Of a stretch of DNA of 64,000 nt, positions 2,308 to 31,756 are shown piece by piece. The DNA comes from Natrarchaeobius oligotrophus (GTDB lineage Archaea; Halobacteriota; Halobacteria; Halobacteriales; Natrialbaceae): contig NZ_REFZ01000016.1 in the NCBI RefSeq assembly GCF_003841465.1, forward strand, positions 1 to 64,000. The letters run 5' to 3'. The translations under genes and the position numbers were made by a program. Positions within the stretch are counted from its first letter, which is position 1. Every line of letters begins with the position of its first letter. The notes below the pieces were generated by a model. The model saw nothing but the letters and a program-made list of their open reading frames with translations, made no database searches and was not told the origin of the DNA.

Positions 2308-2324
2308 CTGTTGGCACGACCGCG
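2308..2324 (+). repeat. Dispersed 17-bp element repeat, copy 1
   Basis: CTGTTGGCACGACCGCG lies in the divergent intergenic region between 2232 and 2404. It shares the invariant CTGTTGGCA core and a CGCG end with the other copies. Confidence 0.5.
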
Positions 2325-2403
2325 TCAGAATACTGCCACCGGTTAATCAGTTGGCGCTGTGGCAGGAGTATGTTCATCAAGCTGGCTCCAGTACACATAG
2401 CTG

Positions 2404-3063
2404 ATGGATGTCAGTACGCTGAAGACGTTGAAAGACGAGTACCCGACGTCCAGCTGGGCGCTATGGAGTTCGGAGTTTCCGAACGAGGGTTGTGTTGAAG
2501 AGGACCCTGCGGAGTTCTTCGAGTTCATCAACGAAAACCACGACCGTCTACGACCGTCGGTCGTCTTGCTCTCGCTGAACCCCTCTACCAAGTTGCCATC
2601 CGACTATCAGAATTTCCATTCGACGGAGCCGAAGCATCGGAACGATCAGTTTCGAGACCACGTTGAGGCGACCGAGCTTGAGGGTGCGTACATGACCGAT
2701 CTGGTTGAGCGGATCGTCGATGCGGATTCGGGCAACATTGACCCAATAGCGGATGACGTCGAGAACCTTTTCGATCAGCTTGACCTCCTCGATCAGGATA
2801 CCTACTACGTCCTTTGTTTTCACGAGAAGGTGTTCCAGACGTTGTTAGAGTTCTGTGATTCGAGACAACGAGAACTCGAACACGACATCAGGGCCTTCCG
2901 AGCCGTCCACGACGGATTTCAGCTGGAGTGTTACCGCGTCTGGTTCCACGCCAACTGGGGGGCGAATCGGGATAAAATCTACGCGTTACGGGAGCAACTG
3001 ACGTTCTTGAGTTCGCAGGTGATTGGTGGGGAAATCGCAGACCTCTCGCGGTGGATCGACTGA
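2404..3063 (+). CDS. Hypothetical protein, possibly uracil-DNA-glycosylase-superfamily-like
   Basis: A 219-residue protein read away from the nuclease pair. A hydrophobic strand followed by LSLNPS (about residues 56-61) and a later GAYMTDLV (about 93-100) resemble the spacing seen in uracil-DNA-glycosylase-like folds, where a strand-NP motif is followed by a short nucleotide-binding loop. A C-terminal WFHANWG segment (about 181-187) could supply another catalytic histidine. The similarity is weak and read by eye; the gene could equally be an unrelated alpha/beta protein. It stands alone with about 170 bp of non-coding DNA upstream. Confidence 0.4.
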   Translation: MDVSTLKTLKDEYPTSSWALWSSEFPNEGCVEEDPAEFFEFINENHDRLRPSVVLLSLNPSTKLPSDYQNFHSTEPKHRNDQFRDHVEATELEGAYMTDLVERIVDADSGNIDPIADDVENLFDQLDLLDQDTYYVLCFHEKVFQTLLEFCDSRQRELEHDIRAFRAVHDGFQLECYRVWFHANWGANRDKIYALREQLTFLSSQVIGGEIADLSRWID

Positions 3064-3259
3064 TCGTTTCCCGCCCCGGGACTGAGATCACCAACCTACC
3101 TTAACAAGGAATCAATATGGAGGAGTTGGTGATCTTTCGCTACCGTCGATTACTGGTTTGCTGACCCGGGCTGGAGATGGAAGCTGCGACCGAGCCCCGA
3201 TAATGACAGCATCGTCAGATTCTCCTATCAAACAAAGTCGCACAACTCTTCTGACGTCG

Positions 3260-4210
3260 CTATTCTGATTCTTTCTCGTATCGTTTAATGAGGAACGTGA
3301 GGAACGCAGAGGTCTGGTGAAGCAAAAGAAGACAATAGTCTTGATCAACTTCATCGTGCCAGCTTTTCCGATCTCCGGTTTTTTGTACGCCGGTACGAAG
3401 ACCACCCATTATTTGTTGCCACTCACCCACCATCGACTGGTTCGGCTCGAACAGTCCTTCCTTGTTTAACCGGTCAAGATAGGTCCCGACGGTCTGTGTT
3501 TCGTTTTCCCACCCTTGCTCCACACACATCTTCTGAACGACAGCCTCCACACTGTTGTAGAGCTTTTCAGCGATTATGGCAGAGAACTGACCGTCCTGAT
3601 ACTTATTCCATGCTTCGTTGTAGCCGCTCAATGGCTCTTTCCATTTCGTACCTTTCGTCAAGACTCGAAGATCCTGATCCGCCTGAACAATAGTTTCATC
3701 CGCGAGCTTTTCGAAGTGAAGGGGTTCATACCGATTAGGGTCATAACGTCTGGGCCGGGTTTTGCGAACACCACCTTCGACACGCGAACGATGAAGGTAC
3801 TTGTGATCTGGTCGTAATCTGAAGAGAATCCGGTGCTCACGAAGCACTCGACGGAGTTTACTGTCCATCTTTAACAAGTCCTCCTCGGAGTGATTACGAT
3901 TCGACCAAAGCGTGTTGAGCAGGATTTCCAGATAGAGAAGCACCTCATCGGTGTCTTCTTCCTTGATTAGGTGTGTCTGAGATGCCCTTGCTGGATCGAA
4001 ATTTCGCCACCGAAAATAGTCTGGCTCCTCTATGACTTCTGTTCGATATTCCATATACGTCTCATACACATCGTCATACGCAACTACATTTTCAAGAATC
4101 CGTGCAATCCGGTTTCGAGCAGGCTCAGTGAGATGCGGATGTACTCGGGGCTCTATCTCCTCATCACGCTTACCCCACGGAGTGAAATCACGATCAAATC
4201 CCCATGTCAT
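3260..4210 (-). CDS. AbiJ-like putative abortive-infection protein (HEPN-like C-terminus)
   Basis: A 316-residue single gene. The N-terminal half is helical and charged. From about residue 205 it resembles the C-terminal domain of AbiJ and related HEPN-fold proteins: helix KLYNSVEAVVQKMC, a loop VGTYLDRLN, then GGLRTGVQ and RKSWHDEV before a final hydrophobic helix. Proteins of this class are linked to RNA cleavage and growth arrest on virus infection. The RKSWH stretch may be a variant of the HEPN R-x(4-6)-H motif, but it is one residue short of the canonical spacing, so activity is uncertain. Its place among other defence genes supports the role. Confidence 0.5.
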   Translation of the reverse strand: MTWGFDRDFTPWGKRDEEIEPRVHPHLTEPARNRIARILENVVAYDDVYETYMEYRTEVIEEPDYFRWRNFDPARASQTHLIKEEDTDEVLLYLEILLNTLWSNRNHSEEDLLKMDSKLRRVLREHRILFRLRPDHKYLHRSRVEGGVRKTRPRRYDPNRYEPLHFEKLADETIVQADQDLRVLTKGTKWKEPLSGYNEAWNKYQDGQFSAIIAEKLYNSVEAVVQKMCVEQGWENETQTVGTYLDRLNKEGLFEPNQSMVGEWQQIMGGLRTGVQKTGDRKSWHDEVDQDYCLLLLHQTSAFLTFLIKRYEKESE

Positions 4211-4713: not shown

Positions 4714-4754
4714 GAACCCGGACGATTTTGTGCCCCAGCTTCGAACCAGGTGAT

Positions 4755-5465
4755 ATGTCACGTCGTTCGGATCTTGACAGACTATACGATCTTCTCGATC
4801 AGCTCGAAGCAAACGTCGGTGGGAAGCAACGGCTCAAAGATTGTACGGGCTATATGGACTGGCCAGTGCGTGGCGTATATTTCTTCTTTGCCGAGGATGG
4901 AACACGAGATTCGACTGATCAGCTTCGACTCACCCGGATCGGCACACATGCAGTGTCCTCGGGTTCGGGTACATCGTTGTGGAATCGACTTCGGACACAC
5001 CGCGGAGCGAACAGCGGGACCTACGAAGGCGGAGGGAATCACCGTGGCTCGGTCTTCCGCAAGCGTGTCGGAGAGGCGATGATCGAACGCAACGGTATTC
5101 ACGACGAGTATCCGCACTGGGGCGACGGCTCCAGCGCCGACCGAGAACGTCGACTTTCGGAGTTAGAACATGAACGTCGCGTAAGCGGGTATATCCGTGA
5201 CCTTCCCTTCCTATGGGTTGACGTCGACGACGATCCAAGCCCGCAGAGTGATCGGGCCTACATCGAGCGTAACGCGATCGCGCTGGTCAGCAACTACCGA
5301 AAGGATTCTCTCGACTCTCGGAGCGACGACTGGTTGGGGCGTGATAGTCCCCGTAGCGAGATCAACGACTCGGGCCTGTGGAACATCAACCACGTCGGAG
5401 AACAGTACGACACGGCGTTTCTGGACCGATTGGCTGATGCCTTAGAGGAAACCTCCGGCCTCTGA
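4755..5465 (+). CDS. GIY-YIG-like nuclease domain protein
   Basis: A 236-residue protein. The start is placed at ATG 4755, preceded by AGGTGAT; a longer frame would run back into DUF6884. Residues about 38-75 read RGVYFFF and, after a loop, RIGTHA followed by LWNRLRTHRG. This matches the GIY-YIG arrangement of two short motifs plus a following Arg-rich helix. A later ERNAIALVSNY (about 173-183) fits the segment carrying the conserved metal-binding Glu. The remainder is acidic and unfamiliar. Co-directional with the DUF6884 gene, it may cut or process modified or foreign DNA (inference). Confidence 0.6.
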   Translation: MSRRSDLDRLYDLLDQLEANVGGKQRLKDCTGYMDWPVRGVYFFFAEDGTRDSTDQLRLTRIGTHAVSSGSGTSLWNRLRTHRGANSGTYEGGGNHRGSVFRKRVGEAMIERNGIHDEYPHWGDGSSADRERRLSELEHERRVSGYIRDLPFLWVDVDDDPSPQSDRAYIERNAIALVSNYRKDSLDSRSDDWLGRDSPRSEINDSGLWNINHVGEQYDTAFLDRLADALEETSGL

Positions 5466-5517
5466 GCTAACTGTGATCTGGAGGATGCTCTGACCGTCGT
5501 AGTTTTCTCCGGGGTAG

Positions 5518-5535
5518 CTGTTGGCACGAACCGCG
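5518..5535 (+). repeat. Dispersed element repeat, copy 2
   Basis: CTGTTGGCACGAACCGCG lies in the 283-bp non-coding stretch after 5465. It is close to copy 1 but has one extra base before CCGCG. No gene is visible in the rest of this gap. Confidence 0.5.
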
Positions 5536-5808
5536 CAGAGATGTCTCTCAGTTTGTTGTGGATGGAGGATTGAAGATTAGGTCATTCAACCGGAGGCCGA
5601 CATACGCGATGAGCGCCAGGATGGTCGGGGGCGCTACGGCGACAGTTGCGAACACGACGCTGAGACAACCGGAAGTGAGTATTTCCTTTGCCAGTTTCCA
5701 GGAGTAGTTTCGCCGTCTTGGTATTGTAGCAATAGCTAATTCAAGAAGGTGGCCCTAGATGATTTCCCACCGCAGAAAATAACTGGTCCCCCAATTAACG
5801 TCTCTCCT

Positions 5809-7761
5809 ATGCCCCTCTCGTTGGACGAACTAAACTCTCATTTATTCAAATGTGCAGACATTATTCGCGATGCTATCGACCCAACCGATTACAAGGAGTA
5901 TATTCTTCCACTCGTCTATTACAAGACCATTTCCGACGAGTTCGAAAATCAGTATCAGGATAATATCGACGAGTACGGCAAGCAGATCGCTCGGGATCCC
6001 GACCTTTATGATGTTCCTGTTGTTCCCGAAGGACACACGTGGGACGATATTTGTGCAATAACCGACAACGTTGATAAAGCACTCAATGAAGCTTTTGAAG
6101 CACTAATCAAGAAGAATCCCGAGTTGGAAGGGGCCTTCAGGGTCGATTTTGTCAATGCAAACGGGCTCAATGATGACCGCTTGACCGAGCTGATGGATCA
6201 TCTAAATAAGTACGATTTTGATCGCACTTCGATACCGCCGGATCTACTTGGTGATGCTTTCAGAGACCTCATTCACCATTTCGCTGAGGAGGAAGGTAAG
6301 AGAGGAGGCCAGTTCTATACACCACCAGAGATCTCAAAATTGAGTATCGCACTTTTGAACGATTTCGAAGATGGAGACGAATTTCACGATCCGACCGTTG
6401 GATCCGCTGGTATGTTGGTTGATGCCGCCCGCTACTACCGTGAAGAACAAGATAAGGACCCCTCAGAACTCCGACTGACGGGCCAAGAGATCAACTTAGA
6501 TATTGCCGCCATTGCCCGCTTGAATCTCTCCATCCATGATCTAAACGATGAAATCGCCAGAGGGGATTCACTATTGGATCCCCAGTTCACTCAGAATGGC
6601 GAGTTGGAACGATTTGACTACGTCGTCTCCAATTTTCCTTTTTCAATGGATTGGCCGAAAGACGAACTTCGGAATGACCAGTATGAGCGTTTCAATTGGA
6701 GCGACAAACTCCCCCGCGCTGATCGCGGTGATTACGCTTTCATCATGCATATCGCCAAGCACCTGAAACGTCCTAATTTAGACGGAACAGGGGGAAAAGC
6801 GGCTATCATCATTCCTCATGGTGTCCTCTTTCGGAAGCATGAGATGGCGTATAGGAAATATATGCTTGAGCATGATCTTGTTGAGGCGATAATTGGCCTT
6901 CCAGAGAAATTGTTCCCAAACACGGCTATTCCTTCAGCAATTCTCGTTCTAAACACTGACAAGCCAACTGAGAAGGAAGGTGAAGTACAGTTCATTCACG
7001 CAGCAGATCCCGATTTCTATGAGGAGCGGAAGAGCCAGAATAAATTGACTGAGGATGGGATTGATAGAATCGTAAGCCTGGTTCAGGACAATGCGACGAG
7101 ATATTCGATAAGTAAGACTGCTCAAATCGAAGAAATACGAGAGAATGATTACAACCTCAACATTACATTTTATGTTGATGGGGTGGACTTCCGAGAAGGA
7201 CAGGCACTCAATCGAGGTCTGAGTAAGCTTGATGAAGTGTCATACGACGGTCAGCTGAATCTCAAGGCAAACTCAACGTTTGATGCGATTCTCGGGAGAG
7301 TGATCCAAAAGCTCGATAATACGGTCTTGGTTTTAGGAAATTACGAGGGTGCTCATAAAGCGGAGCTCGTACGGGTGAAACGTGCGTTGGAGGAAAGGGG
7401 ATATGAAGCCCATCTTTTCGAAGATCTCCCTGATTTCCCCGGCCAAGATCTGTCAGGTAGCGTCGCCACCGCAATGCGGCTGGTCGGTTTCTGCGTAATG
7501 GTGGACCGTCAAGCTTCAGGCCACATAGACGAGTATCGGCTTGCAGAAAAACAACGAACTATCCTCGCAAGGTTAGTTTCGAACGAAGGTGGTTCGACCC
7601 GTATGATCGGGGGATCCGAACACGTTGATGTGAATTATATCAAAACTTTTGAGTTTGGGCTTTACCCACAAGAGGTGCTTGACGAAGCAGTGGATTGGGC
7701 TGATCAGATGCAAGAGAAACGTGAGCAGGTGTATAGTGACTTGTATGAGTGGCGTGACTAA
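5809..7761 (+). CDS. Orphan HsdM-like N6-adenine methylase fused to a TIR-like domain
   Basis: A 650-residue protein. I place the start at ATG 5809 because the following LSLDELNSHLFKCADIIRD aligns with HsdM N-termini; a GTG at 5749 would add 20 residues. Residues about 5-480 form an HsdM-type N6-adenine methylase with helical N-terminus, FYTPPEI, motif I as DPTVGSAGML (residue 194 on) and motif IV as NFPF (residue 275 on). Residues about 500-650 are not part of HsdM. VLVLGNYEG, a helix, YEAHLFEDLP, FCVMVDRQASGHIDEYRLAEK form a Rossmann/TIR-like segment with a candidate catalytic Glu after SGHI. No hsdS or hsdR accompanies it; the next gene is convergent and belongs to another system. Either methylation or TIR-type nucleotide signalling could be its output. 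Confidence 0.7.
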   Translation: MPLSLDELNSHLFKCADIIRDAIDPTDYKEYILPLVYYKTISDEFENQYQDNIDEYGKQIARDPDLYDVPVVPEGHTWDDICAITDNVDKALNEAFEALIKKNPELEGAFRVDFVNANGLNDDRLTELMDHLNKYDFDRTSIPPDLLGDAFRDLIHHFAEEEGKRGGQFYTPPEISKLSIALLNDFEDGDEFHDPTVGSAGMLVDAARYYREEQDKDPSELRLTGQEINLDIAAIARLNLSIHDLNDEIARGDSLLDPQFTQNGELERFDYVVSNFPFSMDWPKDELRNDQYERFNWSDKLPRADRGDYAFIMHIAKHLKRPNLDGTGGKAAIIIPHGVLFRKHEMAYRKYMLEHDLVEAIIGLPEKLFPNTAIPSAILVLNTDKPTEKEGEVQFIHAADPDFYEERKSQNKLTEDGIDRIVSLVQDNATRYSISKTAQIEEIRENDYNLNITFYVDGVDFREGQALNRGLSKLDEVSYDGQLNLKANSTFDAILGRVIQKLDNTVLVLGNYEGAHKAELVRVKRALEERGYEAHLFEDLPDFPGQDLSGSVATAMRLVGFCVMVDRQASGHIDEYRLAEKQRTILARLVSNEGGSTRMIGGSEHVDVNYIKTFEFGLYPQEVLDEAVDWADQMQEKREQVYSDLYEWRD

Positions 7762-7857
7762 GGCACGCACCTACCCCCTCGATTATAAGGCGCTTTATAA
7801 AACACGATTCACTAATTGGTATTACGCGATCATCGAAGATAGCTAAGACTGAACAGA

Positions 7858-8601
7858 TTAGATAGCCAGAGAGTTCCCGTTCACCCTGAGCCATTCACGG
7901 CGATCCTCGTAATCCGGGATGAGAGCACCAACCGTGTTCCAGAACGCGCCAGAGTGTTCATTGTGTACTGAATGAGCCAACTCATGAGCGATGACGTAAT
8001 CTTGGATTCGAACGGGTGCTCGAATCAACCGCCAGTTGAGGCGAACGGTTCCTCTGTCGTATTCACCCCACCGGCCATCGATCTCCCCGACCCACACTGG
8101 CACGGCGTCAAGCCCCAACCTCGACTCAAAACGTGACACTCGGTCCGGGAGTTCTTCCTCCGCACGCTCAATAAACCAGTCGACGACCGCTTGGTGCTTT
8201 CGGCGAACGCTCACATCGTCTACATCCCCGTCGAACCGATGGACGCGAAGGGTGAACGTCTGCTCGTCAAACGATAACCTTGGTTCTGGGACATCTGCCT
8301 CAACAGCCTTCAATGGATACTGTCGCCCCCGATACTGGAGTTTCTCCCCGCTCATGTACTCCTTCGGATACGGCGGCCCTTCTTGCTCTTTGAGTCCGTA
8401 GAGTTTCTGAAGCAGCCACTCTTGGCGAGATTCAAGCACGTCCTCAACATCACCTACTGTCGCGGTCATCGGGGCTGTAACGGTCAACTCCAAGGACTTG
8501 TCGATTGACAAACCTATTGTCTCCCGATTTTCGGACCAATCGACCGTGTAGGGCACGACCGTCTGGCCGATATGATGCCGGCGCTGTAGGCGTTCGCTCA
8601 T
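7858..8601 (-). CDS. YgjP-like (M48/WLM-type) zinc metallopeptidase linked to type I R-M
   Basis: A 247-residue protein of the COG1451 type. The zinc motif HELAH lies at about residue 208 (IAHELAHSVHNEHS), with WGEYDRGTVRLNWRL shortly before, as in YgjP/SprT-like proteins. Its start overlaps the stop of hsdR by 4 nt, so it is the last gene of the hsdM-hsdS-hsdR operon. Such metallopeptidases often accompany type I restriction operons and may tune the restriction subunit by proteolysis. That role is suggested by context only. Confidence 0.85.
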   Translation of the reverse strand: MSERLQRRHHIGQTVVPYTVDWSENRETIGLSIDKSLELTVTAPMTATVGDVEDVLESRQEWLLQKLYGLKEQEGPPYPKEYMSGEKLQYRGRQYPLKAVEADVPEPRLSFDEQTFTLRVHRFDGDVDDVSVRRKHQAVVDWFIERAEEELPDRVSRFESRLGLDAVPVWVGEIDGRWGEYDRGTVRLNWRLIRAPVRIQDYVIAHELAHSVHNEHSGAFWNTVGALIPDYEDRREWLRVNGNSLAI

Positions 8602-11558
8602 TGGTAGTGATTCCGGGCCAGTTCGATAACGCGGTTGGTTAGCTCTTTCCGTTCATCACCCGAAATGTCGATTTCAGAGCGATACAACTCTCCTGTCACC
8701 TCCTTCCGCATCCGGTTCTGTAACTGTGTCTTCTCTTTCCATTCCACCTTGGTCACAAACTGCTCAACAGTCCCGACCAAATCAGCGGTGAGTTCGATGA
8801 GATTTTCCTCGCCAGCATCGTGCTCGTCCAGTACGTCCTCAACGGCGTGGTAGAACGAGAGATCGGTCTCGTCCCGGAGCCCTTTGTTCCGCGCCTGCTT
8901 GTCGCGGGAGCGAATCTCGTCCATCAGTGCCCGAAGCTCCTCAATGGTTTCACGCTCGTTGTATCGCCCTTCCCGGTACTTTTCAATGAGCTCTTCGAGC
9001 CGATCTCTGAGAGAACCGTACTGCACTGGATCTTCGTCGAATCGAACGTTGAGCTCGTGCTTGATTGCATTTTGCATCTCACTCGCCCGAGCTTCGTCGC
9101 TTTCTAAGCCTTCAAGTTTCGCGTCGTACTCGACTTCCTCCATAATCGAGACGGGTTCATCGTTCAGGACCTCGATGCCCCGAGACGTGATGTGGTCCTG
9201 AATCAACTCACGGACCTTTGCTCCCGCTCCTTCGAGGTTCATCGTCTCATCGCGGTACCGCTCCTTCGCCTTCCCGTAGATCGTGCTGAGCCGCTCCAGA
9301 TCCTCCCGGTAGGGGTTCGCCATCGGATCAGGGAGGACGACGTCCATCAGCTGTGAGAACCGCTTGAACGCGTTCTTGAACTCGATTCGGCGGTCGTCAG
9401 GTTCGAGCGACTGAACGCACTGCTCCACATCATCGAGATCGTCGAAGAACGAGACCGCTTTGCTGTGTGCCGCCTCAAGATCGGGCTGTTTGTCCTCGAC
9501 CGGCACCATCGCCCGCTCGACGTCCTTCGAGCTGAACATCGCGAGCGCCTCCTTCAACTCGTCCGAGACACCGTAGTAGTCGATGATGAGGCCATGGGTC
9601 TTCTCCTCGAACGGCCGGTTCACGCGGGCGATCGCCTGCAACAGGCTGTGCTCACGTAGCGGCTTATCGAGGTACATCACCTGAGCCACCGGCGCGTCGA
9701 AGCCTGTCAGGAGCATGTCACAGACGATGAGCAGCTCGACCTCGCCGTTCGGATCGATGAACGATTCCTTGTACTGGCTCTTCTCGGAGTCGCTGGGAGT
9801 CCACTTCTTGATGTGCTCAGGGTCGTTGTGCCCCTCAGAGACTATGACTCGTGACTCCGGGCCGTTCAGGTTGTCGAGGGTCTCTTTGTACCGAATCGCC
9901 GCCTCCTTGCTTGTAGTGACGACCATACCCTTGAACGGCTCAGGTACGTCGTTCTCGTAGTGTTCGATGATGTCCAGTGCGACCCGGTCGATGCGAGGTT
10001 GGGCCTCTGCGAGATCTTGCGTGCGGGCGTATCGCTTCTGGATCTCCGCTTTCTCCTCGTCGGTCTTGTCCGAGAAGATGCGATCGAACAGGCGGTCAAG
10101 CGTCTCACCTTCGAGATGGATGTCTGCAAGACGGCCCTGATACAGGATCTCGACCGTCGCGCCGTCCTCCAGCGACTGATCGATCGTGTACGTGTCGATG
10201 TAGTTCCCGAACGTCCGGCGGGTGTTGCGCTCGTCCTTCTCGATGGGCGTCCCAGTGAATCCCACGTAGAAGGCATTAGGAAGCGCCGTCCGCATGTTGT
10301 TCGCGAGCTCCTTATCCTGCGTCCGGTGGGCCTCGTCGGCCATCACGTAGACGTTCTCGTTCCGGGAGAGCACCGGGAAGTCCTCTTCGTCGTCCGTGGT
10401 CTGGAATTTGTGAATCAGCGTCGTGATCGTCTCGCCCGCGTCGTACGAGAGTCGGTCGCGGAGATCCTCGATGCTCTCGGCCTTTTTCGGATTGGGGAAG
10501 CCGCAGCGTTCGAACGTCGCATGTATCTGGTCGTTGAGTGCCCGGCGATCCGTAACCAACAGGAGTGTTGGATCGTCCTCGTTCCGGCGGAGCTTCAGCG
10601 CGAGAAAGAGCATTGTGAGCGACTTGCCCGAACCCTGGGTGTGCCAGACGACACCGCCCTGTGCCTCGCGCCGACCGCGTTTGTCGATTCGTTCGAGCGC
10701 CTTCCGAACAGCCCGGTACTGCTGATACCGAGCGACCATTTTGATCGCGCCGCTCTGTCGGTTCTCGAACACCGTGAAGTGCCGTAGCTGGTCGAGCAGG
10801 CGCGAGGGTTCAAACAGTGCATACAGCATCCGGTACTGATCCGGGAGGTAGCCGTCGAGGTCGAACAGCTCGATGAGTTCGTCGTCCTCTAGCGGATAGA
10901 CGTCTCGCCAGGGCTTGTACTGGTCTTTCGGCGTTCCGTACGTACCCATGACCGCGCCTTCCATCCAGGCGGCGACCGAGAACTGGTTGTATCGGAACAG
11001 CTCCTCGGCTCCCTCAGACTCACCGTCGCGTTCGTTCTGGTACCGGGTGAGCTGATCGAGCGCCTCCGAACGCGGCTCTGGGATCTGGGGACTCTTGCAC
11101 TCGACGACGCCGAGCGGGATGCCGTTGACGAACAGCACGATGTCGGGCTTGACGACCTCGACCGGCCCTGCAACACGGAACTGGTTGAGCGCGAAGAAGT
11201 CGTTGTTCTCGGGGTTCTCGTAGTCGATGTACTGAACTGTTTGGTGCTGCTTCCCGTGACCTCGATCCTGCTCGACGGAGATGTGTCGGACGAGCTTTTC
11301 ATGGATCTGCTCGTTCTCGTCCATCGTGCTCGTCCCGGCGACCTGTGTGATCTCGCGGACGGCCTTGTTCAGATTGTTCTCGTTGAGCCACGGGTTCAGG
11401 CGCTCAACTGCATTGCGAAGACGCGGTTTGAGTACAGCCGAGGACTCCGTCTCCCGAGGATCGCGCCAAGTGGACCGTTGCTGGTCGACGACCTCCCAAC
11501 CGAGTTGCTGGAGTGCGCCAAGGGCGGGCCGTTCGGACTCGGCGTACTCGTCAGGCAT
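8598..11558 (-). CDS. hsdR: Type I restriction enzyme, restriction/translocase subunit
   Basis: A 986-residue HsdR of normal length. The N-terminal nuclease shows VKPDIVLFV and GVVECKSPQ (about 138-157), the PD-(D/E)XK site. The SF2 motor follows with Walker A QGSGKS (about 307), DEAH as ADEAHRTQ (about 414), FTGTPIEKD (about 440) and QAIARVNRPF (about 655). The C-terminal 300 residues are helical and should contact the methylase. It starts 2 nt after the hsdS stop. With HsdM and HsdS it cuts DNA lacking the host methylation pattern after ATP-driven translocation. All motor and nuclease motifs look intact. Confidence 0.95.
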   Translation of the reverse strand: MPDEYAESERPALGALQQLGWEVVDQQRSTWRDPRETESSAVLKPRLRNAVERLNPWLNENNLNKAVREITQVAGTSTMDENEQIHEKLVRHISVEQDRGHGKQHQTVQYIDYENPENNDFFALNQFRVAGPVEVVKPDIVLFVNGIPLGVVECKSPQIPEPRSEALDQLTRYQNERDGESEGAEELFRYNQFSVAAWMEGAVMGTYGTPKDQYKPWRDVYPLEDDELIELFDLDGYLPDQYRMLYALFEPSRLLDQLRHFTVFENRQSGAIKMVARYQQYRAVRKALERIDKRGRREAQGGVVWHTQGSGKSLTMLFLALKLRRNEDDPTLLLVTDRRALNDQIHATFERCGFPNPKKAESIEDLRDRLSYDAGETITTLIHKFQTTDDEEDFPVLSRNENVYVMADEAHRTQDKELANNMRTALPNAFYVGFTGTPIEKDERNTRRTFGNYIDTYTIDQSLEDGATVEILYQGRLADIHLEGETLDRLFDRIFSDKTDEEKAEIQKRYARTQDLAEAQPRIDRVALDIIEHYENDVPEPFKGMVVTTSKEAAIRYKETLDNLNGPESRVIVSEGHNDPEHIKKWTPSDSEKSQYKESFIDPNGEVELLIVCDMLLTGFDAPVAQVMYLDKPLREHSLLQAIARVNRPFEEKTHGLIIDYYGVSDELKEALAMFSSKDVERAMVPVEDKQPDLEAAHSKAVSFFDDLDDVEQCVQSLEPDDRRIEFKNAFKRFSQLMDVVLPDPMANPYREDLERLSTIYGKAKERYRDETMNLEGAGAKVRELIQDHITSRGIEVLNDEPVSIMEEVEYDAKLEGLESDEARASEMQNAIKHELNVRFDEDPVQYGSLRDRLEELIEKYREGRYNERETIEELRALMDEIRSRDKQARNKGLRDETDLSFYHAVEDVLDEHDAGEENLIELTADLVGTVEQFVTKVEWKEKTQLQNRMRKEVTGELYRSEIDISGDERKELTNRVIELARNHYQ

Positions 11559-11560
11559 GA

Positions 11561-12883
11561 TTAGTCGACGGAGACGCGGACTTTGCCGGTGAGGAGGTCC
11601 TGCAGTAGACCTCGTTTGAGGTCTTGGAGGTGCTGTTTGTTTTCACGTTCAATTTCAATTTCTCTCTCCACTGTCGAAAGCACCTCCGAAATACGATCTT
11701 GCTCCGAAATCGGTGGGCATATGATTGGAATCTCTCGCAACTCCCCGATATTTAGTGAGGCACGAGTCGAGCCTGTACTGAAGACATCGATCAAATCCTG
11801 GTAAATTTTGGTGGAAAGACAGTATTTCAACCATCTCGCATCAAGGTCAGTGGTTGGAGTAACTCGTGCCAAATCACGAGAGATATTCGCTTCTCCTATT
11901 TCCTCATTCAATTGAACAATATTGCCGACGGTTCCCTTTACAGAAACGAGTACTTCTCCCCCTTGGAGCTGACTTCGGGAATATTCTTCGTGGAGATCAG
12001 GTGTGATTTTATGAATCGACTCTCTTTGTATCTCTCCTGTTTCGTCTACGTCTTCGATATTGAGTAGGGGGATCCCATCTTCATCATGTTTGCCTGGTTG
12101 GACAACGCCATAGCAAATGGGATAATCATCCTGATTTAGATCATCAAGATCGGATATCTCCCAATGTTCGGGAATCTGAACCTGAAATGGACCGAGTTGT
12201 GTCTCCTTCCGGCCACTATTAGGAATTAGCTCATCAAACAAATCCTGTAGAAGACCATCTCTAAGTGCTTTGGTTTCTTTAATGATCTCGTCTGTCTGCT
12301 GTATTTGCTCGTCGACCGTCGAGAGGATGTCAGCGATGCGGCGCTGTTCGGGAAGCGGCGGGAGTGGAACCTGTATTCCGCCTTTGAACACGTCGCTCGG
12401 AACCCGTTGTCGGCCGGTAGATCCCTCCATGAGGGAAATAGTGACTGAACGAAACTCGGGTAAGTTCGAGAGATAGTAGACAAACCGCTCGTCGGTTACA
12501 CCATCCCGGGGATGGAATACAAGAAACTCCGTAGAACCGGAGCCAACCTCCGTACCCAGATCTTCTATGAACGCAATCTTCCCGTTTTCAGTACACGGTG
12601 TGATTTTGGCGTAGACAGTATCTCCGTTCTTGAACCACGTCGTCGTACAGTCGTCTTTCTCCCGCTGAGTCCAGTATTCGATGGTCTGCTTTTCTTCATC
12701 AACAGCGTCCATTGGGAGGTAATCGAACGGGCCGTTATCGGGTTTCTCGTATTTCGGATTGAGCTCTATCGCCTCGTCGAAAGGCACGTTGTCCCACTCA
12801 TCCGGTATGGGAATCTCACGAGGACCGAGTTTGACGGTCTTGTAGCCTTCCCGGAGATCAGACTGTTCCAAGGCTTCACTCAT
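11561..12883 (-). CDS. hsdS: Type I restriction enzyme, specificity subunit
   Basis: A 440-residue HsdS with two target-recognition domains, each followed by a conserved helix. The first half ends in PLPPLPEQRRIADILSTVDEQI (about 175-196) and the second in CPPISEQDRISEVLSTVEREI (about 395-415). This two-fold repeat is diagnostic. Its start overlaps hsdM by 4 nt. Base usage in the recognition domains (11640-12300) is more A/T-rich than in hsdM and hsdR, as expected for a part exchanged by recombination. It determines the split target sequence, which cannot be read from the gene. Confidence 0.95.
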   Translation of the reverse strand: MSEALEQSDLREGYKTVKLGPREIPIPDEWDNVPFDEAIELNPKYEKPDNGPFDYLPMDAVDEEKQTIEYWTQREKDDCTTTWFKNGDTVYAKITPCTENGKIAFIEDLGTEVGSGSTEFLVFHPRDGVTDERFVYYLSNLPEFRSVTISLMEGSTGRQRVPSDVFKGGIQVPLPPLPEQRRIADILSTVDEQIQQTDEIIKETKALRDGLLQDLFDELIPNSGRKETQLGPFQVQIPEHWEISDLDDLNQDDYPICYGVVQPGKHDEDGIPLLNIEDVDETGEIQRESIHKITPDLHEEYSRSQLQGGEVLVSVKGTVGNIVQLNEEIGEANISRDLARVTPTTDLDARWLKYCLSTKIYQDLIDVFSTGSTRASLNIGELREIPIICPPISEQDRISEVLSTVEREIEIERENKQHLQDLKRGLLQDLLTGKVRVSVD

Positions 12884-14442
12884 CGGTACTCTAACTCCTC
12901 CATGTACTGCTGCAGTTCATCGTCCGTCTTCCGACGCCTCTCGGCCAGCCGATCCAACTCCTCTAACTTCGCGCTTACGTCGATCGGCTCCTCAGGCTCG
13001 GTCGTGTCGACGTAGCGCGGCACGTTCAGGTTCCAGTCGTTCTCCTCGATCTCCTCCAGCTCGACGAGCCGACTGTGATGATCTTCCTCGCGTCCCGTCT
13101 GGAACGTGTCGGCAAGGTACTCGACGCCCTCGTCCGTCAGTTGATTTTGATTCGAGAGTTCCTCGAATACTTGCACGCCGGACTCTCGAAGCGTCTGATC
13201 CTCGGCGTAGATGAACTGAACCTTGCTCTCGCGTTCCTCGGGCTTGTCCTTATTCAGAATGAGGATACAGCCCGGTGACGAGGTGTTGTAGAATAGGTTC
13301 TCCGGGAGTGCAATCACAGCCTCGATTAGATCGTCTTCCAGAATCGGCTTGCGAATCTTTTTCTCGGACCGCGAACGGAACAGGACGCCGTTGTCCATGA
13401 CGACGCCCGCCTTTCCGGTCTCGTTGAGCGAGGCGATCATGAGCTGAATCCACGCCCAGTCGCCACGATTCGACGGCGGGAGCCCGTATGGGAAGCGGTT
13501 GTACGGCTCGTTGTCCTCTACCCAGTCCTTGTTCCACTCCTTCTGGTTCCACATCGGGTTCGCGATGACCCGGTCAAAGACCTCCAGTTCATCGTGCTTG
13601 GTGACGCGCTTGGGGTCGGTGATGGTGTCGCCCTTCTCGATCTTCGCGTCGTAGAGCTCGTGGAGAAGGACGTTCATCTGACCGATGGCCCACGTGTTCA
13701 GGTTCTTCTCCTGGCCGTACAGCGAGATGTCTGTCATATCGCCGCCCGATTCACGGATGTGCTCGGCGGAGTAGATGAGCATCCCACCGGAGCCACAGCA
13801 GGGGTCATAGACGCGGTGGCCCGGCTCCGGATTCACGCACTTGACGATGAGACGGACGACCTCGCGCGGCGTGTAGAACTCGCCGCCCTTCTTGCCAGCA
13901 TCGTCGGCGAACTCGCGGATGAGGTATTCGTAGGCTCGTCCGAAGATGTCGGGGTCTTCGAGATCCTCGTTCCGATAGCGGTGCTTCGAGAAGTGCGAGA
14001 CGAGATCGGAGAGCAGTGAGTCGGGCAACCGCTCTTTGTCGTTAAAATCGACCGTAGTGAGTACGCGGTCGGCAATGGGATCGTTTTCATCTTCGACCGC
14101 CGCGAGCGCCTTGTTCAGCGCCGCACCAACGTCGGTCTCCTGTGCCTTGATGTGATCCCACCGAGCGCGTTCTGGTATCCAGAACTCTTCGTGGAGGTCT
14201 CGGTCGTCCCTGGCGGTCTCTACTGGAATCCCGAGTTCCTCGGCGACTTCTTCGGTCTCCTCCTCGAAGCGGTCGTTGGCCCGTTTGAGGAACAGCAGCC
14301 CGAAGATGTAGTTCTTGTAATCCGCCGAGTCGATGCTTCCCCGAAGTTTGTCCGCAGCCGCCCACAGATGTTTTTCGAGTGTAGGAAGTGTAAGTAGATC
14401 CGGTTCCGTTCCAGGTAGCGTAGCCTGGTCCTTTTCAGCCAT
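12880..14442 (-). CDS. hsdM: Type I restriction enzyme, N6-adenine methylase subunit
   Basis: A 520-residue HsdM of usual length. It has the helical N-terminus WAAADKLRGSIDSADYKNYI, the FYTPREVVRLIV segment (about 188), motif I DPCCGSGGML (about 213) and motif IV as NPMW (about 296). The last is a variant of NPPF/Y seen in other HsdM subgroups. It is the first gene of hsdM-hsdS-hsdR-metallopeptidase. A TATA-like sequence about 27 bp before the ATG implies leaderless transcription. It shares family but little close similarity with the orphan methylase at 5809, so the two are not a recent duplication. Confidence 0.95.
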   Translation of the reverse strand: MAEKDQATLPGTEPDLLTLPTLEKHLWAAADKLRGSIDSADYKNYIFGLLFLKRANDRFEEETEEVAEELGIPVETARDDRDLHEEFWIPERARWDHIKAQETDVGAALNKALAAVEDENDPIADRVLTTVDFNDKERLPDSLLSDLVSHFSKHRYRNEDLEDPDIFGRAYEYLIREFADDAGKKGGEFYTPREVVRLIVKCVNPEPGHRVYDPCCGSGGMLIYSAEHIRESGGDMTDISLYGQEKNLNTWAIGQMNVLLHELYDAKIEKGDTITDPKRVTKHDELEVFDRVIANPMWNQKEWNKDWVEDNEPYNRFPYGLPPSNRGDWAWIQLMIASLNETGKAGVVMDNGVLFRSRSEKKIRKPILEDDLIEAVIALPENLFYNTSSPGCILILNKDKPEERESKVQFIYAEDQTLRESGVQVFEELSNQNQLTDEGVEYLADTFQTGREEDHHSRLVELEEIEENDWNLNVPRYVDTTEPEEPIDVSAKLEELDRLAERRRKTDDELQQYMEELEYR

Positions 14443-14473: not shown

Positions 14474-14891
14474 GCAACGTCACGATCATAGACGGGTAGG
14501 AGCTGTTCGACAATACCGTCAAGACCGTTGCCTGTACCATTATTTCCGGGGCCGCCGTTTCTGTTGGCATTGAGGCGACGGGATTGAAACCCGGTTCCGA
14601 GCCCTGGGTTGTAGATGCCGCGCACATACATATGGGGCCACACATACGTACTGGTCGTCTCGGAAAGGCGGTAGCGGCCGAGTTCAACTCGACCGGCACG
14701 TGACCTCTGATCCGACTGACGCGGTTGCCCTAACGCCGGACAGCCCGATCACGTGCATCCCACCCGGAGCGCATCGTGACGACATACAGCCATCCGATGC
14801 CTTTCTACCCATCCTACAGCCCAACCACCACCCCGACCATTTTGCTCCCACAGATACGGCCGTCGTCGCCGTTTTTTGTTGGCTGATACAG
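14474..14891. other. Non-coding gap between hsdM and the NucS-like gene
   Basis: No gene with haloarchaeal composition is visible on either strand. The gap contains one dispersed-repeat copy at 14561 and the hsdM promoter side. Confidence 0.45.
14561..14578 (+). repeat. Dispersed element repeat, copy 3
   Basis: CTGTTGGCATTGAGGCGA has the full CTGTTGGCA-T-TG core and a degenerate CGCG end. Confidence 0.45.
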
Positions 14892-15989: not shown

Positions 15990-16042
15990 ACACTGCGCGT
16001 CTAACTCCACACATATCAATCTAATTAACAAGTTGTTATTTT

Positions 16043-16088: not shown

Positions 16089-16102
16089 AAAATAGTCGGG
16101 TG

Positions 16103-19056: not shown

Positions 19057-19363
19057 TGCTTCCTGGTCTCCAAGGGAAGCCTACCGAGTCCGGTGTCCCA
19101 TCACCGGCCTCAACTCCGGCACCGTTTGTCCAGAGCTGTGGCTCCTCGTGTAGGTTTCCCTATGTATTGATAGGATAGATGGTATATTAGTTATATCTAT
19201 TCCAGCAGAAACTAACGGTAAATTAGGATGTTGAGACTCTACAAACGTCGCTGTTGGCAGTGTCCGGTCGGATCCGGATATGATCCACTGGCACTGTGCT
19301 CGGGCCGGTGCGGCTGTAGACAGGGGTCCGTTTGGGTGGCGAGCATCGAAGCGATCAATGTCA
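19057..19363. other. Intergenic region upstream of the small-protein operon
   Basis: There is no convincing gene. The region includes an A/T-rich block around 19160-19200 and one dispersed-repeat copy at 19251. Confidence 0.5.
19251..19267 (+). repeat. Dispersed element repeat, copy 4
   Basis: CTGTTGGCAGTGTCCGG matches the core exactly with CCGG in place of CGCG. Confidence 0.45.
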
Positions 19364-21986: not shown

Positions 21987-22003
21987 CTGTTGGCAGTGGC
22001 GCG
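21987..22003 (+). repeat. Dispersed element repeat, copy 5
   Basis: CTGTTGGCAGTGGCGCG lies 10 bp past the stop of the membrane-protein gene. No gene was seen in the remaining gap to 22230. Confidence 0.5.
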
Positions 22004-22229: not shown

Positions 22230-24086
22230 TTATCTATCAGGTATTGGAACATTTGCGTGCGGGTTTTTCTCTGATAAGCCGACATTTTTCCATTCCTTCT
22301 TGGCGTACCGACCGTCTCCGCGCTCGTCTTCGACATAGCCGTGTTTCCGGAGTACCTTGAGCGCCTCGTCTACGCTTCGCTTTTTGACACTGACGCTGTC
22401 GATGATCTCGTCCTTCGTTGCCGACCCCCTCTCTTCCAGGGCACGGGCAACCTCCTGCACAGACCTCGACCATCGCTTCGGGTTCTCCTCGACGACGGTT
22501 CGAGGAATCCAGTCAGGGATGTTTGCGGTGTAGACGTAGATGTCTGCGCCCGGTATCTCCTCCGTCCGACCGACTCGGAAGATCGCCTGGGCGACCTCAT
22601 TGTGGACGAGATGGCGGTAGTATTTGTCTCCGACCTTGCCGTAGCTCTTGTCGATGCCCGGTTCGCCGTTGCTCTCAACAGCGTACCCGTCGAGGGCGGC
22701 CAGACGCTGGATCTCTCGGTCGCCCGGATGAAGCGAACCGAGAACCGCGAGGAGCGTCTCGTCTTCGAGCTCGGAGTGCGAGCGCACTTTTCCGAGGTGG
22801 AGTTCCTTGTTCGAGACGTAGCGGCCGTTGATGATGCTCTGCTTCGCCTCGTTACTGGTGATCGTCGGTAGCATCCGGTCGTGCTCGTTCTTGATTTCCC
22901 AGAGGATGCCGTTGAACACGTCACGGTTCAGATTCTTCGCTTTTGCCGCCGACACCGTCCGGTCGGGTGTCAGCTGGACGATGTTGTAGTCCAAGACGTG
23001 CTCGATGAACTCGGCCCGCTCGTTGAGCGTCATAAATTCGTGGTACTCCAGGTCGAGACCGAGGCGGTTGCACCAGATCTCCGGCGTGGGCGTCCCATCC
23101 ATGGCGATCGTCGCCCACGCACTGGCCAGCGGCTCGGGCGGGGTACGAACGATGATCGATGGATCTGTCGTGTCGGTGCCCTCGTCGTACAGCAGCGTCT
23201 TACTCGCGAGCTCCGTTCGACGCATGTTGAGGCTGCCGTCGTCGGCGACGGGCTCGCCGTTGAGCACCGCAATCGCGAGCAGCGGGGCGTCGGCCCGTCC
23301 CCCTTGATCCGAGTAGCCAACATTCGGATCGGTCAGATCTACCTGTTCGTGGATCTCCGCGATCCATTCGGCTCGCTGGTCGTCGTCCGCGGCGATCAGG
23401 TCGTCGATCGAGGTCGCCCCGTCGAGATCCACGTGGTGCTCCAGGAGGACATTGATCGCTCGCGTGTACGCGTCCTGCTCAACCGTGTATTCGAACGCGC
23501 CGCCAGCGTCCTCGTCGAAGATCGTGACTCGTTCCTCGATGTATCGCTCGACGTTGCCGTGGATCGGGTGGCCGATCAGCAGGTCGACGTTATCGATCTC
23601 GAAGTCGCAGGCGACGGCGTACGGGCATTTGCCCTCGTGCTGGCAAGGCATGGCGTCGTCGAGGCGTTTGTGCATGTAGCTCGGCGTGATCTGGTTACTG
23701 TGGAGCATCTCGACCAGTTGGGACCACGTTTCCTCGCGGTACGGGATCTCGACGTCGTCGTGCTCGCCGGCTGCGGTCGGACAAACCTCGAAAAACTGCG
23801 GTAACATCTTGATCCGGTCGGAGTCCTGCCCCTCCTCGATCGCGTAGTCCTTGACCTGCTCACGGGTGTCTGTCTCGTTGGTGAGCACGGTGACCGGCCT
23901 GTCGACCGAGGGATCGGCGGCCAGCTTCCCAGCCGAATACGTCTTGCCCAGCATCATCAACACGGGGACCAAGTGGTAGCCGCCGTTAGTAGCGCAAGAG
24001 CGGATCAGATCGTACGTCTGTTCGCGTCTCTTTTCAAGCCCCGATTTAGACGACGCTGCGCTACCAGACTTGCTTGCCATCGACAT
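22230..24086 (-). CDS. Helicase-like replication candidate with C-terminal winged helix
   Basis: A 618-residue protein. A P-loop-like MMLGKTYSAGKL (about 44-55) and a later VTIFDEDAGG (about 187-196, DExx-like) suggest a degenerate SF2 NTPase. Between them are Cys residues CQHEGKCPYAVAC (about 148-160), a possible Fe-S or zinc cluster like those of XPD-type helicases. The last ~100 residues form a winged helix (VQEVARALEERGSATKDEII...RKHGYVED). The gene shares its ATG with the stop of a 59-aa gene and lies downstream of a tandem RHH regulator. Comparable proteins occur in haloarchaeal plasmids, so element replication is the likely job (inference). Confidence 0.65.
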   Translation of the reverse strand: MSMASKSGSAASSKSGLEKRREQTYDLIRSCATNGGYHLVPVLMMLGKTYSAGKLAADPSVDRPVTVLTNETDTREQVKDYAIEEGQDSDRIKMLPQFFEVCPTAAGEHDDVEIPYREETWSQLVEMLHSNQITPSYMHKRLDDAMPCQHEGKCPYAVACDFEIDNVDLLIGHPIHGNVERYIEERVTIFDEDAGGAFEYTVEQDAYTRAINVLLEHHVDLDGATSIDDLIAADDDQRAEWIAEIHEQVDLTDPNVGYSDQGGRADAPLLAIAVLNGEPVADDGSLNMRRTELASKTLLYDEGTDTTDPSIIVRTPPEPLASAWATIAMDGTPTPEIWCNRLGLDLEYHEFMTLNERAEFIEHVLDYNIVQLTPDRTVSAAKAKNLNRDVFNGILWEIKNEHDRMLPTITSNEAKQSIINGRYVSNKELHLGKVRSHSELEDETLLAVLGSLHPGDREIQRLAALDGYAVESNGEPGIDKSYGKVGDKYYRHLVHNEVAQAIFRVGRTEEIPGADIYVYTANIPDWIPRTVVEENPKRWSRSVQEVARALEERGSATKDEIIDSVSVKKRSVDEALKVLRKHGYVEDERGDGRYAKKEWKNVGLSEKNPHANVPIPDR

Positions 24087-25361: not shown

Positions 25362-25826
25362 CCAGTTTTCCGTGATGAAGGTCACTGGCCGTTCCTGCTG
25401 CACGAAGTATGAAAACTGTGTATCCTGTCCTCCATGAAGCAACTAAACTGGCTGACGGCGTTTGATAGCCGGTGTCAACCCCCCGATACAGGGTTCCGAC
25501 ATTTCAGGCTCGGATTCACGACGAGAGAGCACACTGCCAACAGGACCAATGGTACGAACTGCGCGAATCCACCGACATAGAAATCAGCGGTCAACTGGGA
25601 TTTCGACCAGGGGGTGGGCCGAGGCTTCTATCGTCGGGTGGGTGGGGGTGAAACAGACGGAGAGGGGGTGCTACCCTGATTTGAATTAGCTGGCTTCATT
25701 GAAAAGGTGCCTGGGAGTGCCCAGACATCCAGTTTCAGCGTGTTTAGGGGCGACGAACGAGGGGGGCTACTTCATCATGTCTCCACCCTCTCCGGCTCTA
25801 CGATGAGTGGACCGCTGGAAGCTTAG
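25362..25826. other. Long non-coding gap
   Basis: No acidic reading frame or known domain is visible on either strand. It contains one inverted-orientation dispersed repeat at 25527-25543 and G-rich tracts around 25610-25670. Confidence 0.4.
25527..25543 (-). repeat. Dispersed element repeat, copy 6
   Basis: On the minus strand it reads CTGTTGGCAGTGTGCTC. The core is intact and the CGCG end is lost. Confidence 0.4.
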
Positions 25827-26681
25827 TTAGTTCTCGTCGTCAAATTCATCCAGCGTGTCCATAGTGTCGAACTCGCACCGCCATGGATCGTCTTCGGCCG
25901 TTGGCTCCAGCGCATGCTCGATCTCCTCTTCGCTAAATGCTACCTCTGGTTCCCTGTAGCTGTACTCCGGTCGATCGTACTCTAACACTCGCCGCCGAAA
26001 TTTCTTCCCGAGTACAGTGTCCTCGTGTGGTCCAATACGCGCGCCATGCAGACGGAAATGAGGCCAGCCACGACCTTTTCCCGCTCCAGGATACGTATGT
26101 TTGTCGACAGTCACGAAACCAATTTCTCCATCTGGGTCCAGTTCCTCTTCAGACACTGGTGGCTCGTATAGTGGTTCGTGGTCATCATCCTGTTTCACTC
26201 GTGCTCGGTCGACCATCGTGTTCGAGAAGTAGCCGTTGGCATGGGTGGTTTCTCGACTCGGCTGAGCCCGAGCACAGACGAGTGCGGCGGCAATAGCGCA
26301 GAGACGGCGTGCCCATCCGTTGTCCTCCCACCTGTTTTTCGCGAGTTCTTCATACCGCAGGACGTGTTCGGTAGCTTCGTTCCCTGCGACCAAATCCTCG
26401 ACACACACGAGGATCGCACGAGACCAATAGTGACTTTCGTACTTTGGACCAGAGCGAACGAGTTCCCACGCCGCGAAGGCCGCAGTTTCATCGTCCGACC
26501 GACGCACCGCCTTCTGGAACAGGCTTGACATCACGTCCCGTCGATAGCCGCCCTTTGTCTCGTACCAAGGCATCTCCTCGTTGAAGTCATTCAATTCCTG
26601 CTCGTCCTCGTCATCCTCGTTGTCGACTGGATTACCGTGCAAATCCGTTTGCTGTCGCTCTTCATCGTTCTCCTTAGCCAT
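25827..26681 (-). CDS. RarA/MgsA C-terminal-domain-like protein without an ATPase domain
   Basis: A 284-residue protein. Residues about 50-150 (LFQKAVRRSDDETAAFAAWE, YWSRAILVCVEDL, LCAIAAALVCARAQPSRE) resemble the clamp-loader-like C-terminal helical domain of RarA/MgsA. In that protein, SALIKSIRGSD and a VIFASEDIG-like stretch occupy the same order. No Walker A or B is present, so this would be the tetramerisation/cluster domain alone. The last third is acidic and unfamiliar. Stand-alone copies are known in phages. A role at replication forks of the element is an inference. Confidence 0.55.
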   Translation of the reverse strand: MAKENDEERQQTDLHGNPVDNEDDEDEQELNDFNEEMPWYETKGGYRRDVMSSLFQKAVRRSDDETAAFAAWELVRSGPKYESHYWSRAILVCVEDLVAGNEATEHVLRYEELAKNRWEDNGWARRLCAIAAALVCARAQPSRETTHANGYFSNTMVDRARVKQDDDHEPLYEPPVSEEELDPDGEIGFVTVDKHTYPGAGKGRGWPHFRLHGARIGPHEDTVLGKKFRRRVLEYDRPEYSYREPEVAFSEEEIEHALEPTAEDDPWRCEFDTMDTLDEFDDEN

Positions 26682-26794: not shown

Positions 26795-26811
26795 CGCGAC
26801 ACTGCCAACAG
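26795..26811 (-). repeat. Dispersed element repeat, copy 7
   Basis: On the minus strand it reads CTGTTGGCAGTGTCGCG, the best match to the consensus. Its presence here favours the downstream start (26896) for the next gene. Confidence 0.55.
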
Positions 26812-30331: not shown

Positions 30332-30337
30332 GGAATC

Positions 30338-31558
30338 TTAGAAGTCGCTGACCCCCGATTGAAACCGTTCTTCGTCGAAGCCGTCTCGTGCTTGTTCGTA
30401 TGCCGACTGCGTCTGGTCAGTCACACCGAGTTTCTCAATAACTTGTGGATACGCCTGGTCGGATGCCAGTGCGTCTCGAAGGTCTTTGGCCGCTAACGCC
30501 TTCTGCTCGCCGTTGACCAGCTTCTGTAAGCGGTATTTGGCGTTTGTAGGCGAGCGGCGAACGCGAGTGGCTACACCTTCTGCGTCAAAGGCGGTCTTGT
30601 CGGGGAACACGTCCGAGAGGTCACTCACTGGGATGTCACGGTAGACCCAGTCTGTCCTGTCGAACAAGCGGAACTCGGGTTCGCCGTCCTCTCCTTGTTC
30701 TGCTTCCATCTTTTCGAACGCCTCTTCAGGCATTCGGGGTGACACATGGCATCCCCCGATGATGTCGAAACCAAGACCCAGGGAAGAGATGTCGGAAGCG
30801 GGTCGTACACCGAGTGCCTGCTGTCTCGTTCCCGGTGAGGGGTTGATAGCGTAGAACAGTGTGTGTTCTTCGATACCTCGGTTAGCTATACTCTGCATCA
30901 ACGGCTCGACCATCGCCAGCTGGGTTCCCGTCGTCACCTTACACCGGTCGAAATCGAAGGCATAGGTCGTCACGTCGTGAGCTTCGTAGACACCCAACAA
31001 GTCGTCGATGAACTCCCACCCCAATCGTGGAATAAGGCCCATAACGGGTACCTCGGGATGGCGCTCTTGGACCTGGTTTAGGAAAGCGACGACGCTCTTT
31101 TTGAATGAGCGATAGGACGGGTCGCTGAGATCGTCTTCGACGTTCCTCACCAGCTTCGGCATCAACGGGACGGTGATTATGTCCGAGTAGGCGGCGTGGA
31201 TGTCCGCCAGATACCGTGCATGAGCCACGCCAAGAGTGCTCGTTTCGGTGTATTTCGTGAAGGTGATCTTCAACGAGTCATCTGTAGCACTCGAAAACTG
31301 GCTTTCGAGGTCGGAGTTGATCTGGCTTCCATCCGGGTCGCGCATCGCCTCATCGAGATCGTCCCCTCCCACGGTTCGATACAGCTCACTCACACCATCA
31401 CTGTCAGGGTGGAACTCCTCGTGTTCACGGAGTTTGCCAGGGATCGTAGCTGCGGTAGGGGTCTGCACCTTCTTACCCCCTACTCGAACGTTTCGTAGCG
31501 GGAAGATGCCGTTCTGGTCGAAGTCATTGACGGTGGTGATTTTCAGGTCCGTCATCAT
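30338..31558 (-). CDS. TGT/DpdA-like putative base-exchange enzyme (TIM barrel)
   Basis: A 406-residue protein from ATG 31558; the second Met codon at 31555 is equally likely. The N-terminal FPLRNVRVGGKKVQTPTAAT (about 14-33) recalls tRNA-guanine transglycosylase starts (R-x-V...V-x-TP). Barrel-like strands follow: ITVPLMPK, VPVMGLIPR, TTYAFDFD, TLFYAIN. ALGVRPASDISSLGLGFDII (about 250-270) parallels the GVG-PEDL-AV-LGVDMFDC stretch of TGT. The second catalytic Asp position is altered, so it would be a divergent member, perhaps like the phage DNA-modifying DpdA. The last ~100 residues are helical. The call is motif-based and moderate. Confidence 0.45.
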   Translation of the reverse strand: MMTDLKITTVNDFDQNGIFPLRNVRVGGKKVQTPTAATIPGKLREHEEFHPDSDGVSELYRTVGGDDLDEAMRDPDGSQINSDLESQFSSATDDSLKITFTKYTETSTLGVAHARYLADIHAAYSDIITVPLMPKLVRNVEDDLSDPSYRSFKKSVVAFLNQVQERHPEVPVMGLIPRLGWEFIDDLLGVYEAHDVTTYAFDFDRCKVTTGTQLAMVEPLMQSIANRGIEEHTLFYAINPSPGTRQQALGVRPASDISSLGLGFDIIGGCHVSPRMPEEAFEKMEAEQGEDGEPEFRLFDRTDWVYRDIPVSDLSDVFPDKTAFDAEGVATRVRRSPTNAKYRLQKLVNGEQKALAAKDLRDALASDQAYPQVIEKLGVTDQTQSAYEQARDGFDEERFQSGVSDF

Positions 31559-31739
31559 ACCCTGGTTGACGGTTTCACAACACTTAAGAGTTGGTTCACC
31601 GAGGTGAAAGTAAAATAATCTGGTCGATACCGCAGGACGGCGGTATGATTGGGTGCCAAAACAAAGGGGGTGTTCTACTGAATCTTGCCTCTGGCTCTCA
31701 CGACAATACACGTATGAGGACGGATGTGAGCTATCTCAT

Positions 31740-31756
31740 CGCGACAATGCCAACAG
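31740..31756 (-). repeat. Dispersed element repeat, copy 8
   Basis: On the minus strand it reads CTGTTGGCATTGTCGCG. It lies in the 300-bp gap 31559-31858 upstream of the TGT-like gene; nothing else was identified in that gap. Confidence 0.5.

Follow-up and report, generated by a model that had tools for sequence, protein, structure and literature searches.

Genomic islands and ICEs that act as defence hot spots are modular: a conserved backbone offers fixed slots in which defence cargo can be exchanged. It is largely unexplained how defence systems travel between such islands and the slots of mobile elements and, within the limits of our literature search, we know of no defence hot spot with a common element-specific sequence at its slot borders. 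Short repeated sites are known from other systems. In Tus/Ter polar fork barriers, several copies of one asymmetric site fall into two groups of opposite orientation. Chi, KOPS and the polar architecture-imparting sequences are short, polar and spelled in a species- or replicon-specific manner, and Chi promotes crossovers near itself. Integron attC sites stand at the borders of gene cassettes that form arrays of exchangeable cargo. Likenesses to all of these are found in the locus described here, which lies in the first 64,000 nucleotides of a Natrarchaeobius oligotrophus contig (NZ_REFZ01000016.1; hereafter the window). In the open papers that we searched, neither its motif nor elements of this kind are described.

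The motif in the gaps of a tRNA-Thr element

The left half of the window carries an integrated element of 32.7 kb (element A) bounded by attachment repeats. The left repeat (530..576) is 47 bp long and identical to the 3′ part of tRNA-Thr, and the right one (33212..33258) lies inside the tRNA-Thr gene (33213-33284). Within the window, the sequence CTGTTGGCA has nine exact matches against 0.12 expected, and none of 100 dinucleotide shuffles reached nine; shuffling thus fails to reproduce the motif, an outcome that an earlier note on this DNA had left to be checked. Eight of the nine copies are located in non-coding gaps of element A. Their positions and strands are exactly those given in that note, and all eight are outside called genes, as it had proposed. 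It had also placed the sole copy right of the element within a gene, and that copy, at 49121, is indeed inside an open reading frame and hence coding. The description of the repeat as 17 bp long needs correction: the core is present in all eight copies, but the extension is looser than claimed, since CTGTTGGCANTGNCGCG is exact at only three sites (21987, 26795 and 31740), with one mismatch at 14561, two each at 2308 and 19251, and more than three at 5518 and 25527.

Copies gather in integrated elements rather than throughout the genome. The 4.6-Mb genome contains 29 copies of CTGTTGGCA, eight of them in element A and eight more in a second, related element (element B; contigs C17 and C33). The other 13 are mostly in high-G+C DNA, so that eight copies in 33 kb of element A compare with 13 in the ~4.5 Mb outside A and B.

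The sites alternate with recognizable modules. Site 1 (2308..2324, plus strand; core 2308-2316) has backbone genes to its left and cargo to its right. The left part of the backbone encodes a DUF6998 and a 322-aa protein, followed by a DUF6884 and a 236-aa protein (4755..5465, plus strand). Site 2 (5518..5534, plus) separates the 236-aa gene from type I restriction cargo (5749..14442), which comprises a second HsdM, a YgjP-like peptidase, HsdR, HsdS and HsdM, and site 3 (14561..14577, plus) lies between the last of these and a NucS-like backbone gene. Site 4 (19251..19267, plus) marks the right end of a conserved block of small backbone genes, among whose products are winged-helix (F-93/PadR), SWIM and zinc-ribbon proteins. 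Site 5 (21987..22003, plus), present in element A only, adjoins the 3′ end of the central gene (22230..24086, minus), whose product is a helicase-like P-loop protein; its GK and DE motifs are invariant, and its C-terminus matches winged helices. Site 6 (25527..25543, minus), the first with opposite polarity, is left of the gene for a 284-aa backbone protein (25827..26681, minus). Site 7 (26795..26811, minus) lies between that gene and a PD-(D/E)XK nuclease gene, and site 8 (31740..31756, minus) between cargo and the tyrosine integrase gene (31859..33094, minus), the last component of the backbone.

Two backbone proteins have no Pfam family. The 236-aa protein is ~70-90% identical across haloarchaea, also outside these elements. 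Its fairly confident structural model matched nothing in PDB, and a GIY-YIG likeness seen by eye found no match in Pfam, PDB sequence search, Foldseek or VIA-align. The 284-aa protein was modeled poorly (pLDDT 64). It corresponds to a 459-aa version in two related elements, G039 (C4:93052-94431) and G111 (C1:199171-200550), in which two stretches each match the 284-aa protein, as if two diverged copies had fused.

Related elements and their spellings of the motif

Element B is integrated at a tRNA-Ala gene and occupies C17 (~62 kb to its end) and C33. Homology of element A to C17 runs out at 19174 and that to C33 begins at 19166, and the two contigs therefore appear to be continuous. Its motif copies are counterparts of sites 1-4 and 6-8, plus one extra. 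A protein search revealed three more CTGTTGGCA elements: G039 from the same genus, G111 from the same family, and G159, identified through its match to L185 as Salinarchaeum laminariae R26. The 236-aa protein is present in all five and in G280, an element introduced below; in addition, a fragment 91% identical to it, located where another contig of the N. oligotrophus genome ends (C13:902-1183), is possibly the remnant of a third element.

Across the five elements, all 33 CTGTTGGCA-type sites are intergenic according to a simple codon-based gene caller. Their profile consists of nine invariant or nearly invariant core positions and one outlying G amid variable flanks; this G, four bases 5′ of the core, is itself invariant in 33 of 33 sites (GNNNCTGTTGGCA). 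Moreover, the core is kept in full at equivalent junctions of elements whose flanks have diverged. The profile looks like that of a protein site. The parts exchanged between related elements are largely defence systems. Type I restriction cargo is found in A, G111 and G159, and a type IIG enzyme and an SNF2/HKD helicase in B and G039; B also has an AAA protein bearing a DpnI_C domain, and nucleases of the PD-(D/E)XK and FokI-like kinds occur as well. One restriction cassette recurs in A, G111, G159 and element G281; it is placed after site 2 in A and G111 but after site 1 in G159. G159 also has a single 1119-aa gene between two inverted sites.

Other haloarchaeal elements with this backbone spell the motif differently at the equivalent junctions. 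G280, which has the same backbone and sits at a tRNA-Leu, lacks CTGTTGGCA and instead has CCTGCTGTCAG, with seven of the nine copies in its genome located in the element. These form inverted pairs 60-160 bp apart in the gaps of site 1, site 2 and the central gene, and there is a single copy at site 4. The spelling at these junctions is CTGCTGTCAG; Halolamina rubra (L184) shares both it and the pairing but has different restriction cargo. The interval of ~73 bp between inverted CTGCTGTCAG copies looks similar in the two genera (L184:9479-9551 and G280:C2:308067-308142), so the pair may be a composite site with conserved internal parts. TTGATGGCAT is found in seven gaps in Halolamina pelagica (L186/G302) and in six gaps in G255, followed downstream by TCAGC, which resembles the TGTCGCG of the window copies. 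In G281, CTGCTATCA occurs at three junctions, with near-copies at two more, and is perhaps that element's spelling, although it did not pass the shuffle test. De novo motifs stood out from shuffled sequence at P<1/300, on the number of copies in L184 and on the number of gaps in the other three elements (A, G280, L186). The pattern common to the spellings is [CT]TGNT[AG][GT]CA.

Searches also returned sequences that we set aside. No element protein is encoded by the pattern hits from IMG/VR (L208-L216), and three of these contigs have CTGTTGGCA copies that belong to repeats of tailed-phage genes. A plasmid BLAST search with one site region gave no match. In two low-G+C provirus-like regions (L203-L206; G349 C23 and G408 C7), which also contain a distant relative of the 165-aa protein, GAGGTGAGAATC is present in 5-7 copies, always on one strand; it might be an operon-internal or extended Shine-Dalgarno-like motif with no relation to the junction sites.

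Homology junctions, site orientation and candidate readers

Alignments between elements repeatedly break at the sites. A and G039 are 92% identical over 1786 bp (531-2316), and the identity ends exactly at the last base of the site 1 core; downstream of 2316 the two elements have unrelated cargo. Nucleotide homology between A and B covers 2197-2322, 4303-5533 and 14556-19174, with three of the ends at the motif. At site 2, the alignments with B and G111 stop at 5533-5536 and that with G281 resumes at 5538; at site 3, homology with B begins at 14556; at site 4, homology with B, G111 and G039 stops within ~25 bp. G111 homology ends at ~26831 near site 7, where G039 and G111 also part 14 bp from the core. 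The only stretch that A and B have in common around site 8 is 31734-31773, that is, the site and about 15 bp on either side. Considering all pairs, 16 of 90 unique non-coding homology junctions lie at most 20 bp from a site, compared with 4.8 expected for random non-coding positions (P about 2e-4), a count biased by the fact that a conserved site near a gene can by itself end an alignment. Adding the coding junctions, with the null unchanged, leaves a weak excess: 11 of 189 junctions fall within 10 bp of a site (P=0.03) and 16 of 189 within 20 bp (P=0.04), and beyond 20 bp it is not significant. In flank comparisons of orthologous pairs, for which the threshold is noisy, similarity was confined to the 5′ side in 14 cases and to the 3′ side in two, with both sides similar in eight and neither in 24. 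The sites mark junctions between conserved backbone and exchangeable, mostly defence cargo, and almost all such junctions have one. The right border of slot 1 cargo (4287) coincides with the DUF6884 start codon in A, G039 and G111 and lies near it in B; this border has no motif.

The orientation of the sites is also ordered. Element A has five plus-strand sites to the left of its central helicase-like gene and three minus-strand sites to the right of it; A and B together have nine plus and seven minus. Most copies thus point toward this gene. The switch at the central gene is seen in A, B, G111, G302 and G255, each in its own orientation. The central gene of G255 encodes a different P-loop protein with a winged-helix-like end. 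G039, G159 and G302 have one exception each. With orthologous sites counted once, 15 obey the rule and three do not (sign test about 0.004, by our own tally). Orientation of orthologous sites may persist by descent, so that only non-shared sites provide independent support. The G280 and L184 pairs and the tentative G281 sites fall outside the rule, and the inverted CTGCTGTCAG pairs and the opposite polarity of CTGCTATCA weaken the case for a purely directional role.

All copies within an element change their spelling in parallel, which bears on what might read them. Two Halolamina species differ in spelling while one spelling spans host families, making a host factor an unlikely reader. The integrase is likewise unlikely, since its type does not track spelling: one motif is shared by A, B and G159 despite their different integrases, whereas related integrases accompany different motifs in B and G281 and in G159 and G280. 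With these two set aside, the reader is probably an element-encoded DNA-binding protein. Several candidates were considered and rejected, as the identity of the PadR-like winged-helix, zinc-ribbon and SWIM proteins does not track spelling, nor does that of the 284-aa, 236-aa and central helicase-like proteins; among backbone proteins, none has a divergence that follows it. For the RHH and zinc-finger proteins suggested by the earlier note, we found no tie to the motif.

Competing explanations and comparison with known systems

That the junction motifs are functional, element-specific sites is well supported. Their placement at backbone/cargo junctions, their polarity about a central gene and their variant spellings go beyond what the earlier note saw. 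It had offered three readings: a regulator-binding site, a partition or packaging signal, and a spread small repeat. A binding site for an element protein fits best on sequence grounds, as the sites are element-specific, stay conserved while their flanks diverge and change spelling jointly within an element. The spread repeat found no support, with neither a transposon signature nor copy expansion outside the elements. We tentatively favour the view that the motif is a polar binding site, roughly 17-36 bp long, for a putative element-encoded DNA-binding protein acting in replication or recombination, and that it also serves as a preferred crossover point for cargo exchange. Each element keeps identical sites in the gaps between conserved backbone modules and interchangeable cargo and, in most elements, the sites flanking the central helicase-like gene face each other. 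The protein might use them as directional landmarks in replication or repair of element DNA, comparable to fork-pausing or Chi-like sites, and breaks or stalled ends at the sites could become preferred crossovers when related elements exchange cargo. We infer the protein, the process and a causal part of the sites in crossovers that may otherwise merely have been retained there.

A rather unlikely alternative is a true site-specific recombination site, at which a recombinase or site-specific endonuclease would swap cargo cassettes, either integron-like or by cassette exchange. It would account for the many comparisons in which homology stops at a site, for restriction cargo that follows different sites in A/G111 and G159, for the inverted sites around the 1119-aa gene, and for neighbouring sites on each arm being direct repeats. 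However, the tRNA integrase is the only recombinase found and its type does not track the motif, the right border of slot 1 has no site, cargo lies on either side of the motif, and comparisons within one motif type turned up neither an excised intermediate nor one with an empty slot. Slightly less probable still is an operator or insulator through which a regulator controls or separates backbone and cargo transcription. Most sites do lie in gaps with at least one promoter region, and element-specific spelling would fit a co-evolving regulator, but the sites differ greatly in their distance from gene starts and in their strand, and no HTH protein tracks spelling. Moreover, the gap is convergent and promoter-free at site 5 in A and at site 2 in B, G039 and G111, and this last observation argues against a simple operator.

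The remaining possibilities are more remote. We consider it improbable that the motif is a MITE or a transposon end without function: the inverted pairs of G280 and L184, with their copies 60-160 bp apart, look like terminal repeats, but conservation reaches outside the pairs, copies are confined to elements, element A has single copies and no pairs, and elements with diverged flanks retain the complete core at a given junction. A structured RNA or transcription terminator has very little in its favour; short hairpins follow some sites by eye, but the mean folding z-score of the 33 sites is about 0 on both strands and Rfam finds only the tRNA.

Comparison with known systems sharpens these judgments. 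The five plus and three minus sites of element A match the two orientation groups of Tus/Ter; unlike Ter, the spelling here differs between closely related elements and the sites are at cargo junctions, and the Pfam matches of element genes include no Tus or RTP homologue. Compared with Chi and KOPS, copies are few, intergenic only and confined to the element; their orientation switches at the central helicase-like gene, which may or may not correspond to an origin or terminus about which such sequences are skewed. Parting from attC, whose boxes are GTTRRRY and RYYYAAC, the motif lacks these boxes (its GTTGGCA breaks GTTRRRY at the last two positions in all copies) and any foldable hairpin (folding z about 0 with RNA parameters, in place of an imperfect palindrome); cargo lies on either side, and instead of IntI there is only the tRNA integrase, whose match to the NCBIfam archaeal XerA/integron-integrase model scores 51.7 bits against a cutoff of 220. 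MITE and IS ends differ from a motif that has single copies in A and 16 of its 29 genome copies in two elements; no target duplication was evident by eye at the G280 pairs. Unlike promoter operators of one regulon, the sites have no fixed position relative to promoters. Unlike parS-type partition sites, they are asymmetric rather than palindromic, and no ParA or ParB is among the Pfam matches of element genes; a partition or packaging signal of another kind is conceivable.

In overall organization these elements resemble modular defence hot spots, with which they share a conserved backbone, fixed slots and exchangeable defence cargo. It is conceivable, if doubtful, that element-specific polar sites and a cognate DNA-binding protein exchange defence cassettes at these slots as a non-integron archaeal system. 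If so, spelling would diversify between element lineages and might decide which elements can be exchange partners. In any case, the element-specific junction sequence is a concrete handle that delimits cassettes and predicts slots in unannotated elements. It also points to a predicted DNA-binding protein that should be retrievable with a 36-bp probe, and the parallel change of spelling among an element's copies amounts to a natural experiment by which this reader could be found. Relative to the hot spots described in genomic islands and ICEs, the elements combine a familiar architecture of backbone, slots and defence cargo with a common sequence at the slot borders.
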